Assembly (NCBI RefSeq): GCF_000425545.1
Contig: NZ_AUDQ01000002.1
Span: 1 to 64,000, forward strand
Direction of reading: 5' to 3'
DNA: 64,000 nt
DNA from: Sporosarcina ureae DSM 2281
GTDB lineage: Bacteria > Bacillota > Bacilli > Bacillales_A > Planococcaceae
Shown here: piece by piece, positions 50,323 to 63,048 of the stretch
How the letters are laid out: each line of letters opens with the position of its first letter
Numbering within the stretch: position 1 is the stretch's first letter
Translations under genes and position numbers: made by a program
Notes under the pieces: generated by a model
Databases searched by the model: none
Seen by the model: only the letters and a program-made list of their open reading frames with translations
What the model was told of the DNA's origin: nothing

Positions 50323-51072
50323 ATGAAACGTTTCGGAATGTTTGTAATGAGTACGGCAATGATTGGTATTCTCGCTGGGTGTGGTCAAGACGAGAAGGTA
50401 CCGACGGAAGCTGTTTTACCTGAACCAATTGAAGTTGAACTTACAGTACCTGAACAAGGAAATGTGGATGAACCGGTAACGATCACTACGCTCGTGACGC
50501 AAGGTGAAGAATATGTAGATGATGCATCAGAAGTAGAGTATGAAATTTGGGAAGAAGGCAAGAAAGAAGACAGCATTCTCGTAGAAACAACCAATGATAA
50601 GGAAGGTATTTATTCAGCAGAAAACACATTTGAGACTGACGGGTTGTATCACGTGCAAGTTCACGTTACTGCACGGGGCATGCACGTCATGCCTGAAAAG
50701 CAAATTCAGATCGGAGAAGCTACTCAACAACCGGATGAACACGAAAGCGCACAAGAAGGTCAACATCATGAACATGGCGATGGAGTAGAAGGACTTTCTA
50801 TTCACTTCGTGCAACCTGAGGAAGCAAAAGCAACGACAGATACAGAGTTGATGACGCATGCGCAGCTTGACGGCGAAGCAATTAAGGCACAGGTCCGTTA
50901 TGAAATCATCTCTGCAGACAAAGAAACTACATGGGTAGATACGGATGAATCCAAGCCTGGTGAATATACAGCAAATTATCAATTCCCTAAAGCAGGCAGT
51001 TATCAAGTGATTATCCATATCGAAAATGAAGATATTCACGAGCACGAAGAACATACAGTAGAAGTGAAATAA
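50323..51072 (+). CDS. Lipoprotein with two YtkA-like domains
   Basis: A 249-residue surface lipoprotein (lipobox GILAGCGQD, Cys about 20). Two FixH/YtkA-like beta domains (about 33-132 and 165-248) are each built on VEVELTVPEQ- or VRYEIIS-type strands. A His/Glu-rich linker (HESAQEGQHHEHGDG) lies between them, and HEHEEHTVEVK closes the protein. Methionines and histidines such as ARGMHVMPEK suggest copper binding. It is divergent from the regulator-kinase-Sco operon. A role in copper delivery to an oxidase is inference. Confidence 0.8.
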   Translation: MKRFGMFVMSTAMIGILAGCGQDEKVPTEAVLPEPIEVELTVPEQGNVDEPVTITTLVTQGEEYVDDASEVEYEIWEEGKKEDSILVETTNDKEGIYSAENTFETDGLYHVQVHVTARGMHVMPEKQIQIGEATQQPDEHESAQEGQHHEHGDGVEGLSIHFVQPEEAKATTDTELMTHAQLDGEAIKAQVRYEIISADKETTWVDTDESKPGEYTANYQFPKAGSYQVIIHIENEDIHEHEEHTVEVK

Positions 51073-55253: not shown

Positions 55254-55280
55254 ACATTTTGTCTGTTCTTCCATATGCTA
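55254..55280 (+). promoter_or_regulatory. Sigma-K-like promoter of the mnx operon
   Basis: AC (55254-55255), 16 bases, then CATATGCTA (55272-55280), an exact fit to the late mother-cell pattern AC...CATAnnnTA. The mnx operon of Bacillus SG-1 is also reported to have a sigma-K-type promoter. A caution: the predicted start site falls within or just before the mnxA SD (GAGGTGA, 55285-55291), leaving almost no leader. Confidence 0.6.
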
Positions 55281-55294
55281 TTTCGAGGTGACCT

Positions 55295-55714
55295 ATGGAA
55301 CAGTCGATCTTGCTGTTTTTATTGTATGCAGACATCTGTTTGATCATTGGCTTTTATATGTACATCCGAAAAATGAGGAAATTGATTGGTTTTCATTTAG
55401 GTATGAATATGAGCATGGTTATGGGCGGTATGGCCGCATTGTTATTTGGAATCATGCTTATCACGCATATGCCGTTTCACTTTACGTATATTACATTACT
55501 CTCGGCAATTATCGGAGGAGCAGTTGGAGCTTGGTTTGGCTTGTTGATTGATTATCAGACGTTTGTGACTGGATTGACAAATGGTCTGATTGTCGGGCTG
55601 ATGGCACCAATGATTGGCACGGTTTTGGAGATGCAAATGCTATTTGTCTGGTTTCTACATGCTTTCTTCATCGGTAGTTTAGGTGTATTGTTCATTTCTA
55701 TTAAAAGGGCGTGA
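55295..55714 (+). CDS. mnxA: MnxA-like membrane protein
   Basis: A 139-residue protein with about five hydrophobic segments and repeated Gly/Met-rich helices (MNMSMVMGGMAALLFG, IIGGAVGAWFGLLI). It is the first gene of an operon whose order and product types match mnxA-G of marine Mn(II)-oxidizing Bacillus spores. Its function in that system is unknown. The name rests mainly on position. SD GAGGTGA; the 3' end overlaps mnxB by four bases. Confidence 0.7.
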   Translation: MEQSILLFLLYADICLIIGFYMYIRKMRKLIGFHLGMNMSMVMGGMAALLFGIMLITHMPFHFTYITLLSAIIGGAVGAWFGLLIDYQTFVTGLTNGLIVGLMAPMIGTVLEMQMLFVWFLHAFFIGSLGVLFISIKRA

Positions 55715-56184
55715 AGGGGGCTATGCTACTTATAATTTTGCTGTTCATGTGGTGTGTTGGTGAAATACTAATCAACTATCGAGTAGTGAGGAAGAAAAGA
55801 CTGTTGTTTGAAGACCGATTCACAAAAACGATTTGTATGGCAATTGCGTCCATTTCTTCCTTCGCAACAGCATTGTACTTCGAATTATTGTTACCGGAAG
55901 ATCAAATCGCTACTTATTTATTACCCGTATTACTAGGAGTGTTTATCGGTTGGCAATTCGGCTCGCTTATTAAAGCACCAGCTTCATTAAATGGTCTATA
56001 TAACGGCGTGATAGGAGGCGTAATGGGTATGATGCTTGGTGCAGTGCTGAAAAATCCTGCACTTTGCAATATACCTCTTGATTCTAATTCAATGATTGCG
56101 AGTAATCTTTTCACCATCACTATATTTATAGCCTTTTCTCATTCGTTGGTTTGTTTCTTCATCCGCCGTTCTATGAGAGGGTGA
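55711..56184 (+). CDS. mnxB: MnxB-like membrane protein
   Basis: A 157-residue protein with four or five membrane segments. Its GVFIGWQFGSLIKAP and IGGVMGMMLGAVL parts echo the Gly/Met-rich helices of MnxA, suggesting the two are related. The GTG start overlaps the mnxA stop; an ATG at 55723 is the alternative but sits only two bases from AAGGGGG. Role in manganese oxidation unknown; named by position. Confidence 0.68.
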   Translation: MKGAMLLIILLFMWCVGEILINYRVVRKKRLLFEDRFTKTICMAIASISSFATALYFELLLPEDQIATYLLPVLLGVFIGWQFGSLIKAPASLNGLYNGVIGGVMGMMLGAVLKNPALCNIPLDSNSMIASNLFTITIFIAFSHSLVCFFIRRSMRG

Positions 56185-56214
56185 AGATCATTTGGGCAGG
56201 AGAGGAGAACAGTA

Positions 56215-56793
56215 GTGAAAAAGTTCATCATCATTTTGATGTTGCCTATCTTTTTCGGGATTATATACGCCGTGTGGTCAAAGGCAGTGGAACTACCGAA
56301 AATTGGGGAAGTAACGGAATGGCCGTTTACCGAAGTGGGCGGGAACGAGACAAACTTCCAGGGCAAACCGAAGCTTGTCACATTTTTCTACACAAAGTGT
56401 CCCGATGTTTGTCCAACTACTATGTGGGATCTGACAGCCTTGCAGAAGGTAATGGAAGGTAGGGGAATATCCCAAGATGAGTACTTCATCATAGCTATCA
56501 CCGTAGATCCTGAATATGATACGAAAGAGAAAATAGTACGTTATAAAGAATTATTTACTATCGAAGACCCTAACTGGTTGTTCTTTAGAGGTACAGAAGA
56601 ATCGACTAAAGAGTTCTCAAAATACCTGAATTTTTATTACGACAAAAATGAAGATGGTTTCGTTACGCATTCGACGTCTATGTATATTGTTGATGATCAG
56701 GATTTGGTAAGAGCTCATCATAATATGGCAACAGGGAAAAATAGCGTAGCCATTGAGGAAATCGCTAATCATTTACAACAACTTATCAAATAG
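56215..56793 (+). CDS. mnxC: MnxC-like SCO-family copper protein
   Basis: A 192-residue, membrane-anchored (about 4-22) thioredoxin-fold protein. The copper/redox pair is in YTKCPDVCPTT (about 60-64) and the His in FVTHSTSMYIVDD (about 148). In SG-1, MnxC is likewise Sco-like and is thought to help copper reach the oxidase. There is no lipobox, unlike the other Sco protein here. GTG start with SD AGGAGAGGAG. Confidence 0.88.
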   Translation: MKKFIIILMLPIFFGIIYAVWSKAVELPKIGEVTEWPFTEVGGNETNFQGKPKLVTFFYTKCPDVCPTTMWDLTALQKVMEGRGISQDEYFIIAITVDPEYDTKEKIVRYKELFTIEDPNWLFFRGTEESTKEFSKYLNFYYDKNEDGFVTHSTSMYIVDDQDLVRAHHNMATGKNSVAIEEIANHLQQLIK

Positions 56794-56826
56794 TTCTAGC
56801 GTTACTTTTCGAATGATAGTAAGGAG

Positions 56827-57558
56827 GTGATCTTCATAAAGGAAGTTAGTAGAAATCCCGCTTTTTCCTCGCCAACAAGTAATGGGCCTGATGAACAAAC
56901 TAGAGTGTTAACAGATTATATCAGCCAGAAAAATTTATTTAAAATAGCCGGAATTCATGAGCCCCTCAGGAAATCATTGACACTCAAAAAGTTCTTCAAA
57001 AGCAAACGGAACCAGCAAGTCGTCATTTCATCATTTGGCGAGGTGGACAGTAGTCTAGAAACAGAGGGGAAAGTCGCAGCAATTGGTAGAGATTTTGTTA
57101 TGCTGACGAATCTACAGAAACGAATATGGATTCCCTACACGTATATTGAAACAGCAAATATCCCCTTTGGTTTTCCTTCCTATTCCAATACGCATCAGCA
57201 TCACCTATATGATAATCAGTTGCAAAAAAATCTTACGCTTCGATTTGGCGAAACGGTTAACAAAAGAGAAGTACTCGTCCAACAGTTTTTTGAGGAATCT
57301 TTTCGGACCAATTTTCTTTCATGGAAAGGTACGAGAGTGGAAGCCGTTTTGAGTAATGAAACCGTAAGCGGAAAGATCATGAATACGACAAAGAGCGAGT
57401 TACTGCTCACGAGCTTTGGCACAGTACGCAAGATTCCTTTAGTGGAAATTCGCATTGTATCTACTATCTCACTAGTTTCCTTTTGGAAAAAAGAGATGAG
57501 AACGTTGCTCCAATCATTTGGTGGAAAAGTAAGAGGAGGCAGAAAGAATGAAAAATAA
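56827..57558 (+). CDS. mnxD: MnxD-like protein with two small beta-barrel modules
   Basis: About 243 residues, soluble. Two similar segments (about 62-115 and 165-225) each read as a short barrel: G-x-V strands, a turn, and an IP-type closing strand (RIWIPYTYIETANIP; VRKIPLVEIRIV). It precedes mnxE and overlaps it by 11 bases. Start uncertain: the GTG at 56827 lies inside the AAGGAGGTGA SD, and the codon at the ideal distance (56836) is ATA. Role unknown; named by position. Confidence 0.7.
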   Translation: MIFIKEVSRNPAFSSPTSNGPDEQTRVLTDYISQKNLFKIAGIHEPLRKSLTLKKFFKSKRNQQVVISSFGEVDSSLETEGKVAAIGRDFVMLTNLQKRIWIPYTYIETANIPFGFPSYSNTHQHHLYDNQLQKNLTLRFGETVNKREVLVQQFFEESFRTNFLSWKGTRVEAVLSNETVSGKIMNTTKSELLLTSFGTVRKIPLVEIRIVSTISLVSFWKKEMRTLLQSFGGKVRGGRKNEK

Positions 57559-57838
57559 AAAAAAGATTCAATCCCATGATTTCTCAGGATTGATAGATCA
57601 GGAAGTTCTTATCATTACAAAGGCAGTGCAGCTTAATATACTAGGCCAAGTATTCCGTCCAATTTTTTGCGGTACAGTTTCTGAAGTGGGTGTAGGGCAT
57701 TTAACCTTAACGCCTGTTACAGTCAAAATGGTGAATGCTCCTTTTTATAAGTTCCCGACACCATTGAGTATACCTTTGGAGAAAATCGTGTCATTTACGA
57801 CAGAAGTACCTTGTGATTTAGTCTTTCCGTTAACTTAA
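57548..57838 (+). CDS. mnxE: MnxE-like small subunit of the manganese oxidase complex
   Basis: A 96-residue protein with the same barrel pattern as MnxD and MnxF (DQEVLIITKAVQ, CGTVSEVGVGHLTL, LSIPLEKIVSF). In SG-1, MnxE and MnxF form an oligomer that holds MnxG and binds copper. SD AGAGGAGG lies inside the end of mnxD. The single Cys of the barrel and a C-terminal Cys are notable. Confidence 0.8.
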   Translation: MKNKKKIQSHDFSGLIDQEVLIITKAVQLNILGQVFRPIFCGTVSEVGVGHLTLTPVTVKMVNAPFYKFPTPLSIPLEKIVSFTTEVPCDLVFPLT

Positions 57839-57853
57839 AAAGGAGTTGAATGC

Positions 57854-58141
57854 ATGACACAGCAAAATGAATGTCAGCCAATCAATATTGTTCGGGAAGA
57901 AGGAATCATCGTCCACTTTAGCCAGAACATAGGCCAAAGAGTATTGATCCTGACGGAGGCCTTTCCGTTTATGTTCATAGGTGAAATTATTAGTGTAGTG
58001 GATGATATTGTGGAAATGAAAGTTCAGACAACATCTATCCCTGCATTGGAAGGGAAAACATGGTTTGTTCATATTGACACCATTGAAGTGTTCTATATCG
58101 AAACAGAAAATGGAGTTCCAATCCCGGAATTAAAAGAGTAG
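57854..58141 (+). CDS. mnxF: MnxF-like small subunit of the manganese oxidase complex
   Basis: A 95-residue protein related to MnxE (GQRVLILTEAFPFMFIGEII, VDDIVEMKVQT, WFVHIDTIEVFYIE). Partner of MnxE in the Mnx complex of SG-1. SD AAAAAGGAG; the gene is 17 bp before mnxG. Position and fold both support the call. Confidence 0.82.
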   Translation: MTQQNECQPINIVREEGIIVHFSQNIGQRVLILTEAFPFMFIGEIISVVDDIVEMKVQTTSIPALEGKTWFVHIDTIEVFYIETENGVPIPELKE

Positions 58142-58158
58142 AAGATGAGGTGAAGTGA

Positions 58159-61100
58159 GTGAAAAGACGCTACCACGTAGTAGCCATTCCTATACGGATT
58201 GTCCTGAACACATTTGGGGATCACAATCCGAATGGCATGATGTATGTATTGAAGGAAAACGAAGAAAAAGTGAAGCAACTCGTAAAGAAAAATCCTTTTA
58301 TGCCTGTTGATCTCGTTCAACCGCTCTTTATCCGGGCGAATGAAGGAGATGTCGTGGAAATACTGTTTGAAAATAAACTCCCATTCCATGCAGGTATGCA
58401 TTTTCAGGAAGCAGAATACGATGTTTGCCAATCGGATGGAGCGAATGTTGGATTCAATAAGGAAACGACTGTAGCGCCATGTGAAAAAATCTTATATAAG
58501 CTGCATTTGATGAAAGAAGGAAACTATTACTTCTCTGATCTAGGAAATGTCTCGAGTGACCAAAACGGTTCTAACTCCAACGGTCTTGTCGGAGGATTAT
58601 GTGTGCAAAGCCGTTTCTCCTGGTGGACCGATCCTGAAACAGGCAAGCCAATAAATAGCGGACAATATGCGGATGTCCATCATCCTTTGCTACCTTCCTT
58701 CCGAGAGTATGTGTGGATGTTTACAGATGAAATGGAAGTGGATGATCTAACAGGCAACAGACCGATTAATCATTTCTCCAATCAAGAAGTAGAGTCGTTC
58801 CATGGCGCTAATTATCGCTATGAACCAGAAAACAGACGAGAACAATTAGTCGCAGAAGGCGTCGTCTGTCCAAACTGTGAGGGAGAAGAAGTGCACCATG
58901 ATTCATGGGTCTTCGGCGACCCGTCGACACCGATTCTGCGGGGGTATGTCGGGGATCCTGCAAAAATACGACTATTTCATGGCGGTGTGAAGGAAACACA
59001 TGTATTCCACTATCACGTCCACCAATGGTTCAGTGATCCAGGTGATTTGTCTTCTGAGATTTTTGATGCGCAGGCCATTAGTCCGCAAAGTCATTACACG
59101 ATTCAGCCGCTATACGGTCTTGGCAGCTTGCACGGCTCTTTTGGAGATGCAGTCATCCACTGTCATCTCTATCCGCATTTCGCGGCAGGAATGTGGGGGA
59201 TGAATCGTGTCTTCAATACACTTCAAGACGGCAGCCAGTGCTATCCGAATGGTGTTCCGATCAAGGCACTTAAGCCACTACCGGATAGACCGGCGCCGCC
59301 AAAACCAACTAAACAGAAACCTGGATTCCCGAATTTTATTCCAGGAAAAGTCGGTTTGAAAGCACCTCGTCCACCAATGAGTATTGTTGGAGGTAGGGTG
59401 TTGACTGAACTTGAGAGAAATGCTGCAATTGCAAATCCTAGACCGGGGGCAGTTTTTACCGACCCGTGTCCTGAAGGTGTACCTGTAAAGGAGTTCAATA
59501 TCTCCTTAATTGAGATTCCGCTTACTTATAACCGAGAAGGTTGGCATGACCCGACTGGACGAATATTTGTGCTTGATGAAGATTTGGACGATATTTGTTC
59601 AGGAAAGAAAGCACCGGAACCGCTCGTCATCCATGCATCCAGTAATACGCGCTATGAAATCAATTTCACAAACCGTTTGCCGCATATCTTGGATGGTGAC
59701 GCATTCCAGCTAGTTACGCGAACTTACGAGGCGGGTTTGCACATCCACTTTGTGAAGTTCGATGTACTCGTAAATGACGGTGGAAATATCGGATGGAACT
59801 ATGATTCATCTGTTCTATCCGGTGAAACGATCCGATACTCTTACTATGCAGATGTTGAGCTTAAAGCATGGTTCTTCCATGATCATATATTCCCGTCAGC
59901 CCATCAACAGCACGGTGTCTTCGGTTCCGGTGTCGTCCATCCGCGCTTTTCTGGATTTCTTGATTCCGCGACTGGGGAGGAAGTGGATCAGGGGGTGGAA
60001 ATTACTGTTACCAATCCACTTATCCCCGATTATAGAGACTTTGCGATATTCGCACAAGACTTCACACACTTATTTAACAAAGACGGTAAACCATTAGCAC
60101 CTCCGCCATTCCCGGGCTCACCAGATGATCCAGGGCTGTTTGGAGTGAACTATAAAAATGAACCACTGCAATTCCGTTTAGGTAAGGACTGCGATCCTGC
60201 TTACAGTTTCAGTTCGTATGTAAAAGGCGATCCTATTACACCGATTTTTAAAGCGTATGAGGGGGATTCCATCCGGATCCGGTTGCTTCAAGGGGCACAG
60301 GAAGAATCCCATAGTTTTAATGTGCATGGTCTACGTTGGCTGAATGAGCGCGGAGATCTAAATTCCAGGTTGGAAAACCAGCAGCATATAGGAATCTCCG
60401 AATCATTTACGATGGAGATGAATGTGCCGAGGTCAGGTGATTATTTATGGACTTTTGAAACGGAAGAGGATTTATGGAATGGACTCTGGGGTCTGATTAG
60501 GGCATACGATGAAAAAGTTCCTGAACTAATCAAACTGCCCGATCGGTCCGAACCGAAAGAGCGTTCAAAACCTTTGCCGGAATGTACAGGGATCAAACCG
60601 CCATCAGCAGCAGATCCAACTATAGAGATAGTGGAGGGGCCTCTGCGAAAATACGATGTCGTAGCCTTTCAAACCTCGATCCAGTATAACTCGTTCGGTG
60701 ATCATGATCCGGATGCCATCATCTTTGCGTTGCGTGAGGATATGGAGGCTATACAGAACGGCGAGAAAGAACCGGTACCGCTCATCTTACGTGGCAACGT
60801 GGGGGATACTGTCGATGTTACGTTAACTAGCTATCTGAAACCAGAGCTGTTTCCATTCAAGGACGGAATCTATCCGTATCCGATTGTGAAGGAGCAAGCA
60901 TTTTATCCACCATCTTTACGTATCTCACTTCATGCTCAATTACTTGATTATGACGTTAAGACGTCTGCAGGAGAGACAGTTGGATTCAATGGCGATCAAA
61001 CAGTTGGTCCAGGTGAGTCTAGGACGTATCGCTGGTATGTCGATTCTGCGGTCGGTGTGTGCGGCATGTGGGATATGGCGGATATCCGCAACCATCGTTC

Positions 61101-61800
61101 GCAAGGCGCGTTCGGTGCATTTATAGCAGAACCGAGGGGAACCGAATATTTGGATCCGTATACACTGGAGCCAGTCACGATAGGAGCGAATGTTATCTTG
61201 CGCAATCCCTACTTGCCAGATACGAGAGAATTCGTGATTGTGATGCATGACGGTGTCAGGCTACTTGATCAAAACAATCAAGTCATTTTCGATCCAGTGG
61301 ACGGTATTTTGCTGGCTCCGCCTGAGATAGACGAGGATTTGCTAGATACGTATGATCAAGGGTCGCGAGGCTTTAACTATCGAAGCGAGCGGCTGATTAA
61401 TCGTTATCGACAACATGCAAAAATCCATGATGTATTCAGTTCAGATGTTTTTGGCGACCCATCCACTCCAGTTTTCGAAAGCTATGTGGGGGACCCGGTT
61501 ACAATACGATTAGTCACACCGGCTGAAAGACGAAGATCGCACACATTCCATCTGCATGGTCACCGTTGGAAATTTGATTCCAAAGATATTTATTCACGAA
61601 CAGAATCATATGTCGGATTTAACGTTGCGGGTGCTAAAAGAAATTTGCAACTGCTTGGCGGTGCAGGAGCTTATAACGGATTCTCGGGCGATTTCATGTA
61701 TCGATCAGGAAACATTCGCTGGGATATCGAGCAAGGGATGTGGGGGATCATGCGGGTTTTCGAAGAGCTTAAAAAGCATCTCCCAAAACTAGATCAATAG
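58159..61800 (+). CDS. mnxG: MnxG-type multicopper manganese oxidase
   Basis: A 1213-residue multicopper oxidase, far larger than laccases (about 500) and close to the 1217 residues of SG-1 MnxG, which oxidises Mn(II) to Mn(IV) oxide on the spore surface. Copper-site motifs: FHAGMHFQ (77-83), THVFHYHVHQW (about 278-288) and IHCHLYPHFAAGMW (about 333-346). Later domains carry FFHDHIFPSAHQQHG (about 571-585), HSFNVHGLRW (about 718) and HTFHLHGHRW (about 1128), consistent with six cupredoxin domains. No signal peptide, as for a coat/exosporium protein. GTG start, SD AGGTGA. Confidence 0.93.
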   Translation: MKRRYHVVAIPIRIVLNTFGDHNPNGMMYVLKENEEKVKQLVKKNPFMPVDLVQPLFIRANEGDVVEILFENKLPFHAGMHFQEAEYDVCQSDGANVGFNKETTVAPCEKILYKLHLMKEGNYYFSDLGNVSSDQNGSNSNGLVGGLCVQSRFSWWTDPETGKPINSGQYADVHHPLLPSFREYVWMFTDEMEVDDLTGNRPINHFSNQEVESFHGANYRYEPENRREQLVAEGVVCPNCEGEEVHHDSWVFGDPSTPILRGYVGDPAKIRLFHGGVKETHVFHYHVHQWFSDPGDLSSEIFDAQAISPQSHYTIQPLYGLGSLHGSFGDAVIHCHLYPHFAAGMWGMNRVFNTLQDGSQCYPNGVPIKALKPLPDRPAPPKPTKQKPGFPNFIPGKVGLKAPRPPMSIVGGRVLTELERNAAIANPRPGAVFTDPCPEGVPVKEFNISLIEIPLTYNREGWHDPTGRIFVLDEDLDDICSGKKAPEPLVIHASSNTRYEINFTNRLPHILDGDAFQLVTRTYEAGLHIHFVKFDVLVNDGGNIGWNYDSSVLSGETIRYSYYADVELKAWFFHDHIFPSAHQQHGVFGSGVVHPRFSGFLDSATGEEVDQGVEITVTNPLIPDYRDFAIFAQDFTHLFNKDGKPLAPPPFPGSPDDPGLFGVNYKNEPLQFRLGKDCDPAYSFSSYVKGDPITPIFKAYEGDSIRIRLLQGAQEESHSFNVHGLRWLNERGDLNSRLENQQHIGISESFTMEMNVPRSGDYLWTFETEEDLWNGLWGLIRAYDEKVPELIKLPDRSEPKERSKPLPECTGIKPPSAADPTIEIVEGPLRKYDVVAFQTSIQYNSFGDHDPDAIIFALREDMEAIQNGEKEPVPLILRGNVGDTVDVTLTSYLKPELFPFKDGIYPYPIVKEQAFYPPSLRISLHAQLLDYDVKTSAGETVGFNGDQTVGPGESRTYRWYVDSAVGVCGMWDMADIRNHRSQGAFGAFIAEPRGTEYLDPYTLEPVTIGANVILRNPYLPDTREFVIVMHDGVRLLDQNNQVIFDPVDGILLAPPEIDEDLLDTYDQGSRGFNYRSERLINRYRQHAKIHDVFSSDVFGDPSTPVFESYVGDPVTIRLVTPAERRRSHTFHLHGHRWKFDSKDIYSRTESYVGFNVAGAKRNLQLLGGAGAYNGFSGDFMYRSGNIRWDIEQGMWGIMRVFEELKKHLPKLDQ

Positions 61801-61825
61801 TTTGTGAAGGAACGGGGGTGTGAAA

Positions 61826-62545
61826 ATGGGTAAAAAGAGAATAAAGAAAAAACAAATGAAAAAGCAAATGGAAAAGCAAATCGAAAAACAGGATTTTTTC
61901 ATCCCGAAAAAATGCTGTCCAAGCCGGGCAGAGAATCCGGAATTGCCATCTCCAGAAAGCTGTCTTCCTCCTGAAAAGCGTGAGGAAGTAGACAAGAAAA
62001 TCGCAGAAGCCAATAGATTATTACTGGATCTGGCACTTGACGATAACCGATCCGTTCAAGAAACGTATCAACGGGCGTTTGACGGTTTGATTGGTCTGGA
62101 AGTAGAGATAATAAATCCTTTAGATGAAACGCTTTCTGGAGTAGTGGTGATGGCGGCATTTGATTTTATCTTGTTAAGGCGAGACGATTATAAAATCATC
62201 GTGCCATATGAACAGATTGAATCGGTCAAATCCTCGGGCTGCTATGCTGAACTAGTACCGGAGGCCAATTTACTGAATATCGGTCCACGTTTACGTAGGA
62301 AGCTAACATTTCAGTTTGGAAAAGTCGTCGGCTCTTCTCCAGAGCTTATTCAGCTATTCTTCAAAATTCCGTTAGCGGTCTATCTGCTGTTGTTTGAAGA
62401 GCAAACTATAAAAGTTCGAGTTGGACGGTCACTAATTGAAGGGGTACTAGTGGATGTGAATAAAGAGTCCATTGTACTGGAGTTGAATAAAGAAAAAAGT
62501 ATCATCGCCATTGGAAATATTGGCCACATCGTGGTAGATAAATAA
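61826..62545 (+). CDS. MnxD-like paralog downstream of mnxG
   Basis: A 239-residue protein. A very basic, Lys/Gln-rich N-terminus (about 1-28) and a CC-containing proline-rich stretch precede two barrel modules (about 85-140 and 190-239). The second region (LRRKLTFQFGKVV...ELIQLFFKIP) aligns by eye with MnxD (LQKNLTLRFGETV...VLVQQFFEES). It follows mnxG by 25 bp with no terminator, so it belongs to the operon. It is not part of the seven-gene mnx operon as I know it. Start ATG 61826 with SD GGGGG. Confidence 0.75.
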   Translation: MGKKRIKKKQMKKQMEKQIEKQDFFIPKKCCPSRAENPELPSPESCLPPEKREEVDKKIAEANRLLLDLALDDNRSVQETYQRAFDGLIGLEVEIINPLDETLSGVVVMAAFDFILLRRDDYKIIVPYEQIESVKSSGCYAELVPEANLLNIGPRLRRKLTFQFGKVVGSSPELIQLFFKIPLAVYLLLFEEQTIKVRVGRSLIEGVLVDVNKESIVLELNKEKSIIAIGNIGHIVVDK

Positions 62546-62580
62546 AAAATCAGTCCCTATAATTGGGGACTGATTTTTTA
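62545..62580. terminator. Bidirectional terminator ending the mnx operon
   Basis: A stem AAAAATCAGTCCC/GGGACTGATTTTT between the convergent MnxD paralog and Cys-rich gene. Confidence 0.9.
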
Positions 62581-62588
62581 TTACTATA

Positions 62589-63023
62589 CTACCTGCATGG
62601 GTTCTTGGAATGGCAACATCCTAGGGTCTTGATTTGTGAAATCTTGTCGATTGGTAAAATCAAAGTATTACCGATTGGATGATCTACTTTCTTTCGTTTC
62701 TTTCCTTTTTTATCAGCAGTACAACCACAGTCTGCGGGCAATTCGCCTGGTTTCCCGTTCACGAATATCTCGACAAAGTTAGAGCCGACAAAAGTAATAG
62801 TACCCTTTACAATTTCTTCTTCCATTTGGAACTCCACCTCACAACAAACCATTTGGCGCAAACGGAAGTTAAGACCGTCTTGCAAACCGCCTAAACGGAC
62901 CATGAAGCACGGATTACATAAGTCTTTTCTACAACGGGTACAGTATTTGGCACCACATTTTTTTTTGGGGCACTTCTGACAGTAATTGTGTTCTCCACAT
63001 TTACAATGATTTTCTTTTTTCAA
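62589..63023 (-). CDS. Cysteine-rich protein with one Mnx-type barrel module
   Basis: About 144 residues. The N-terminal 45 are packed with cysteines (CKCGEHNYCQKCPKKKCG, CTRCRKDLCNPCF), like a metal- or coat-crosslinking segment. The rest reads as the same small barrel (CCEVEFQMEEEIVKGTITFV, LILPIDKISQIKTLGCC). The TTG at 63023 is eight bases from GGGAGGTGA and is preferred over the GTG at 63032. A CATATACTA sequence upstream suggests sigma-K control. A coat or exosporium role is inference. Confidence 0.7.
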   Translation of the reverse strand: MKKENHCKCGEHNYCQKCPKKKCGAKYCTRCRKDLCNPCFMVRLGGLQDGLNFRLRQMVCCEVEFQMEEEIVKGTITFVGSNFVEIFVNGKPGELPADCGCTADKKGKKRKKVDHPIGNTLILPIDKISQIKTLGCCHSKNPCR

Positions 63024-63048
63024 AGCATTCACCTCCCACCGCTCTTTG

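Follow-up and report, generated by a model that had tools for sequence, protein, structure and literature searches.

A Predicted Spore-Borne Mnx Locus in Sporosarcina ureae and Two Companion Genes Beyond the Seven-Gene List

Introduction

Bacterial oxidation of Mn(II) is the driving force of the manganese cycle, and of the enzymes responsible for it Mnx has been studied most thoroughly. The closest described systems are the mnxABCDEFG operon of SG-1 and the Mnx complex of PL-12. Here we analyze an mnx locus from Sporosarcina ureae DSM 2281, contained in a stretch of 64,000 nucleotides (contig NZ_AUDQ01000002.1, positions 1–64,000, forward strand; hereafter the window). Genes mnxA to mnxG are accompanied in this locus by two further genes, orfH and orfI, for which the names mnxH and mnxI are proposed.

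According to one study of PL-12 (PMC5622069), manganese is oxidized by spores and not by growing cells; mnxE, mnxF, and mnxG form the minimal set for activity, PL-12 MnxEFG being active in E. coli without the other mnx genes; and the complex consists of one MnxG and an E3F3 ring, with both MnxE and MnxF binding copper. The same text raises the question of why the oxide does not bury the enzyme. In the solved structure 9bxa, titled “Structure of Mnx H340A complex,” the chains are one MnxG, three MnxE, and three MnxF; no MnxD, orfH, or orfI chain is present among its sequences matched here.

Results

The mnx genes of the window are seven open frames on one strand that occupy positions 55295 to 61800 and agree with the SG-1 operon in gene order, in reading direction, and in all seven proteins. 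mnxA (55295–55714, + strand) and mnxB (55711–56184, +) encode small membrane proteins of 139 and 157 residues, 48% and 37% identical to their SG-1 equivalents over 109 and 141 residues, respectively. Their profiles match at 99.5%, so that MnxA and MnxB are paralogues. mnxC (56215–56793, +) encodes 192 residues of a SCO1/SenC-type copper/thiol protein (Pfam SCO1-SenC, 6.3e-23; 38% identity to SG-1 over 188 residues), as the preliminary description of this DNA, made from the sequence alone, had proposed in calling it a Sco protein. mnxD (56827–57558, +) specifies a protein of 243 residues that is 46% identical to SG-1 MnxD over 229 residues and whose family is sister to that of orfH. The two ring subunits, MnxE (57548–57838, +; 96 residues) and MnxF (57854–58141, +; 95 residues), precede the multicopper Mn(II) oxidase MnxG (58159–61800, +; 1213 residues).

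Outside this interval, on the same strand and beginning 19 bases past the mnxG stop codon, lies orfH (61820–62545, +), with 241 residues and two predicted barrels of the Sm/Hfq type; its true start may instead be the ATG at 61826. It is followed by orfI (62589–63032, − strand), with 147 residues comprising a Cys/His-rich tail and one predicted Sm-type barrel. The arrangement in SG-1 is the same, with orfH 15 bases past mnxG and a convergent orfI. Identity between the window and SG-1 is 73% for MnxG (tblastn match) and 33–62% for the other eight proteins.

The preliminary description presented a complete mnxA–G-type operon of co-directional, mostly overlapping genes ending in mnxG. Completeness of the A–G set, with the order and kind of genes seen in SG-1, is borne out, as is the common direction. 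Overlap, however, is confined to the A/B and D/E junctions (two of six), the four remaining gaps measuring 15 to 33 bases, and the operon does not end at mnxG, since transcription appears to continue into orfH. A strong hairpin flanked by an A-run and a T-run, which would terminate transcription of the mnx operon and of the convergent orfI alike, is located at 62541–62585 (both strands; −25.6 kcal/mol, z −9.5 on the + strand, and −21.9 kcal/mol, z −8.0 on the − strand). No such hairpin is found at the mnxG–orfH junction, 61795–61830 (−2.0 kcal/mol, z −0.7). A general terminator scan did not pick up the hairpin at 62541–62585.

MnxG of the window aligns end to end with PL-12 MnxG (9bxa_A; 2006 bits over residues 1–1212), whereas the second-best solved structure reaches 32 bits. 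It is this alignment that upholds the six domains ascribed to the protein beforehand; Pfam by itself reports just Cu-oxidase_3 and Cu-oxidase_2, in two stretches each. Both of the motifs previously pointed out, HYHVHQW and HCHLYPHFAAGMW, are present. Codons 281–345 (58999–59193, +) contain the type 1 copper ligands H281, C335, H340, and M345 together with H284, H286, H334, and H336 of the trinuclear site, and the remaining trinuclear ligands, H528, H530, H574, and H576, fall within codons 528–576 (59740–59886, +). These assignments follow the canonical multicopper-oxidase consensus. Each of the twelve ligands, corresponding by sequence to one type 1 and one trinuclear site, is kept in all 83 rows of an alignment of the window protein with 82 full-length copies from 77 of 78 mnxG loci (described below; the broken copy of locus L073 was left out). 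The placing of H340 as a key ligand fits the title of 9bxa, in which the residue of the same number is the one mutated.

MnxE and MnxF likewise match PL-12 chains over all or nearly all of their length (9bxa_B, 1.5e-32, and 9bxa_E, 4.3e-19, respectively), and both genes are found in SG-1. In a tree of MnxG relatives, which contained no outside multicopper oxidase and from which PL-12, compared by alignment, is absent, the window protein lies within a 20-row clade that includes SG-1 (Shimodaira–Hasegawa-like approximate likelihood ratio test support 99); its nearest neighbors are Sporosarcina sp. P32b and P34 (support 100). MnxG therefore falls inside the MnxG clade, and its two partners resemble the characterized subunits. 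The Pseudomonas-type MnxG is also a multicopper oxidase and bears the same gene name, but the window protein scores 327 bits against the model for that long type (NCBIfam NF041487, 1894 positions), far under the cut-off of 3100, and no Bacillus-type MnxG model was matched in the NCBIfam scan. Automatic annotation will thus miss or misname the Bacillus-type protein.

Two genes beyond the seven-gene list, orfH and orfI, are near-exclusive companions of mnxG, and their co-occurrence with it is well supported by two sets of counts. A contig scan for MnxG gave 138 relatives, of which the best 80, representing 78 loci, were kept as the basis of all locus counts; profiles seeded with the window proteins were run over every open frame of these loci. 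Besides mnxG itself (78 loci), mnxA was present in 60, mnxB in 50, mnxC in 45, mnxD in 63, mnxE in 72, and mnxF in 76 loci, while orfH was found in 67 and orfI in 62. The best unrelated neighbor family, against a background of 1121 other open frames, reached 12 of 78 loci, and on this ground the idea that orfH and orfI are chance neighbors was dropped. In each of its 67 loci orfH scored 154 bits or more, and 41 of the 62 matches to orfI scored at least 60 bits. In 46 loci orfH is the next gene after mnxG and has the same orientation; in 14 it lies upstream in divergent orientation, in 7 it has some other position, and 11 do not contain it. Both genes remain near mnx even in loci with a rearranged gene order. 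orfI, too, is absent from those 11 loci, several of which are second mnxG copies or lie at contig ends. A full A–G set occurs in 44 loci, 39 of which have both companions.

The second set of counts came from a genome-wide search of 261 genomes of the order, 43 with a full-length MnxG and 218 without, using orfH and orfI profiles built from alignments of mnx-locus sequences. Proteins of the orfH class (at least 198 bits) occur in 42 genomes: 41 belong to the group of 43 that have full MnxG, and the remaining one, G221, the single carrier among the 218 others, has a truncated MnxG. The MnxD class (74–122 bits) occurs in 44 genomes, namely all 43 with full MnxG and G206. orfI was found in 43 genomes, 40 from the group of 43 that have full MnxG and 3 from the group of 218 that do not (G221, G206, and G119); in G091, which has a full mnxG without orfI, the contig ends at that point. 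The carriers of orfI without mnxG were considered as possible rule-breakers and set aside, since G206 holds a decayed mnx locus and the match in G119 amounts to 25 bits and contains two stops. Nominal Fisher p values are 3e-44 for orfH and 6e-40 for orfI. Given the relatedness of the genomes, they cannot be read as true probabilities; for this reason, and because mnx loci were the source of the profiles, the counts themselves are preferred.

No family scored above cut-off in Pfam or NCBIfam for MnxA, MnxB, MnxD, MnxE, MnxF, orfH, or orfI of the window, and none was matched by the SG-1 copies of orfH and orfI. A phmmer search of MnxD against solved structures gave no match up to E = 10. No paper naming orfH or orfI was found in the one open-access library searched; the original 1996 paper on the SG-1 operon may mention sequence after mnxG.

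Profile comparison and fold models relate the two companions to the smaller Mnx proteins. orfH is close to MnxD (hhalign 99.9%, E = 4.2e-32, 206 columns), and it is in turn related to orfI (96.6%, E = 7e-10); MnxE and MnxF, at 74%, are likely kin on the basis of their sequences. MnxD (60 rows) and orfH (65 rows) form two distinct clades, both branches having support of 100, although some long branches were flagged; on account of these clades, the idea that orfH is only a miscounted MnxD was dropped. orfH alone has a Cys/Pro-rich N-terminal stretch, in which C33 is kept in 52 of 54 rows and S44 in 54 of 54.

The fold model of orfH (mean predicted local distance difference test score [pLDDT] 85.4; predicted template modeling score [pTM] 0.69) has two five-strand barrels, with strands in residues 94–139 and 196–240, each preceded by helices. 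Its best structural match is the viral protein 2x4j (Z 14.3, 109 residues, 2.4 Å), followed by Hfq proteins (Z 8.3), and Foldseek places 9bxa_E (MnxF) at rank 48 (E = 0.029). The model of orfI contains a helix (53–60) and five strands (65–136) that make up one barrel, for which Foldseek ranks 9bxa_E second (E = 0.012) and 9bxa_B (MnxE) fourth (E = 0.018); Hfq is matched with Z 10.2 and the spore protein GerQ (8zra) with Z 9.6. The part of orfI in front of the barrel has a median Cys plus His content of 22% (55 of 63 sequences could be split). Both models show the layout of the Sm/Hfq fold, in which a short helix leads into a five-strand barrel. MnxD, orfH, and orfI are predicted to be Sm-type barrels; MnxE and MnxF are Sm-like in the solved complex. 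The predicted fold of orfH and orfI is shared with GerQ and with DUF2642/DUF6897 proteins, to which profile kinship is weak; unlike these, orfH joins two barrels to its Cys/Pro-rich N terminus, and orfI carries the Cys/His-rich tail. Tandem-barrel proteins were also seen at a distance from mnxG or in genomes lacking it (L082 2162–2887, L083 1637–2332, and L084 1688–2419); the first two, which were scanned with Pfam, are DUF2642/DUF6897 proteins. It is possible that MnxD and orfH descend from ancestors of this kind.

Signals for late expression in the mother cell were sought with a sigma-K-like pattern. Where orfH heads a transcription unit, the motif precedes it in 14 of 23 cases (2.1 expected from shuffles), as against 1 of 44 (0.8 expected) where it lies behind another mnx gene. 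As heads, orfI (16 of 61; 3.3 expected), mnxD (13 of 37; 1.5), and mnxA (12 of 60; 2.6) are also preceded by it. The background is not clean, since the motif occurs before internal mnxG (8 of 80; 3.2 expected) and internal mnxD (5 of 30; 1.6) as well. In the window, the pattern scan gave a sigma-K-like AC-N16-CATANNNT before mnxA (55254–55279, +), a weak site because its start point would lie inside the mnxA ribosome-binding site. A sigma-70-type scan yielded 16 sites against 18.7 expected. In keeping with a spore-forming host, the genome encodes CotE (195 bits over cut-off) and sporulation-type sigma factors; its best score with the sigK model, 283.6 bits, is slightly below the cut-off of 298.65.

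The surroundings of mnxA vary. Beside it, 12 of 78 loci, for example SG-1 (L049, 4153–6758) and L010 (4492–7058), have genes for two proteins, one collagen-like and one with a PKD domain, whereas in the window a SEC-C protein gene occupies this place. The collagen-like and PKD proteins are probably exosporium proteins, and their presence fits an exosporium setting; a search of the window's genome for the PKD protein of other mnx loci, run without a positive control, gave no match. Neighbors of copper type include a CopC/CopD fusion in 7 of 78 loci (for example, L066 6800–8047) and YtkA-like lipoproteins in 5 of 78; a YtkA-like gene of the window lies at 50323–51072, 4 kilobases before mnxA.

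By record title, mnxG occurs in 28 named genera among the 78 loci. In the genome-wide set its distribution is patchy (9 of 19 genera): 45 of the 261 genomes give a match, the 43 full-length proteins being joined by an 89-residue fragment in G213 and a protein without its first 424 residues in G221. The genus of the window contributes 16 genomes with mnxG, two of them with a broken gene. The preliminary description had suggested that, given a Sporosarcina-like host, the locus extends the system beyond marine Bacillus. That is correct for the host, but it is not special to this genome.

Three loci of the same genus are decayed, each with different internal losses: in G206 (L087), mnxC and a broken mnxD remain beside orfI, with mnxE, mnxF, and mnxG gone; G213 (L088) retains mnxA and a scrap of mnxG; and G221 (L089) has lost mnxD, mnxE, mnxF, and the front of mnxG. 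These differing losses imply that the trait is being lost in place. Duplication is seen too: five loci (L019, L022, L033, L044, and L050) hold two full-length mnxG genes, and some genomes have a second mnxG elsewhere (e.g., L020 with L059, L023 with L027), often without orfH and orfI.

Discussion

Since it is otherwise unchanged from the closest known system, the locus is an expected member of the known Mnx type. We consider it highly probable that it encodes a spore-borne Mnx-type manganese oxidase, as a proposed nine-gene module that includes orfH and orfI. Oxidation of Mn(II) to Mn(IV) oxide by the spores of this strain is a prediction from sequence. MnxEFG would carry out the same manganese chemistry as in PL-12, because the MnxG, MnxE, and MnxF parts are intact in the window. 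The sufficiency of these three proteins in E. coli suggests that the remaining conserved genes serve copper loading or placement of the enzyme on the spore. A part in copper supply or export is probable for MnxC and for the membrane paralogues MnxA and MnxB. MnxD, orfH, and, through its Cys/His-rich tail, orfI probably build the enzyme layer or anchor it on the spore surface, a role that is likewise suggested by the activity of MnxEFG made alone.

Several observations weigh against this reading. Two genomes with full MnxG (G019 and G120) and 11 of 78 loci have neither orfH nor orfI, so the pair is not required everywhere, and the co-occurrence itself can be explained by joint inheritance of one gene block. 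For orfI, 21 of the 62 locus matches fall below 60 bits, and the model (mean pLDDT 68.9, pTM 0.54) is weak except in the barrel. Profile matches of MnxE and MnxF to MnxD, orfH, and orfI do not exceed 31% (the maximum being MnxE to orfI), and the link to the ring subunits is therefore one of fold; because Sm-type barrels are common, fold matches with Z of about 8–10 are weak evidence of kinship. Finally, the same genome encodes two other multicopper oxidases (G000:C10:76162–76509 and G000:C11:45465–45860, in frames of 548 and 599 residues), one of which is possibly a coat laccase of the CotA kind and an alternative Mn oxidase.

A more detailed picture can be drawn, for which we put the chances at somewhat short of even. 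The five barrel proteins (MnxD, MnxE, MnxF, orfH, and orfI) would represent one Sm/Hfq-type group that is also a source of spore-coat proteins, and the nine-gene system would carry its enzyme on a stack of rings: E3F3, then D3 and H3, and a ring of orfI whose tails bind metal or tie the enzyme to the exosporium. Since MnxD and orfH have two barrels per protein, three copies of each could close a six-position ring like that of E3F3 and stack on it.

It is unlikely, in our judgment, that orfH and orfI are instead ordinary coat or exosporium proteins inherited alongside mnx, with Mnx proper limited to the seven named genes. Such an origin would agree with the likeness of the orfH and orfI profiles to tandem-barrel DUF2642/DUF6897 proteins from genomes without mnxG (hhalign 94% and 86%; three-sequence profile), with the appearance of GerQ in the fold list of orfI, and with the activity of MnxEFG alone in E. 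coli described in PMC5622069. A general coat protein, however, should be found in relatives without mnxG, yet orfH occurs in 1 and orfI in 3 of those 218 genomes, and two of these carriers (G221 and G206) hold decayed mnx loci, the third (G119) showing only the 25-bit match. Moreover, the two genes have remained close to mnx through rearrangements of the locus, whereas other neighbors reach at most 12 of 78 loci.

Less plausible still is the proposal that orfH is redundant with MnxD as a copy of it, for instance as an additional assembly chaperone, and lacks a separate role. The profile kinship of the two over 206 columns would favor it, but where both are present they fall into two fully supported clades, the Cys/Pro-rich N-terminal stretch is peculiar to orfH, and both proteins are kept in 41 of the 43 genomes with full MnxG. 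That the operon is intact but silent or directed at another substrate (iron, phenols), leaving no Mn oxide on the spores, is very improbable, for although mnx loci are decaying in the same genus (G206, G213, and G221), in the window all frames are open, the twelve copper ligands are kept, the subunits MnxE and MnxF needed for Mn activity are present, and the genome encodes CotE and sporulation-type sigma factors.

The wider host range offers more strains to choose from, many of them, by record title, isolates from soil, cold, or cave environments. orfH and orfI make up a short list of candidates for holding the enzyme on the spore, and both are also present in SG-1, the organism in which the operon was first described.

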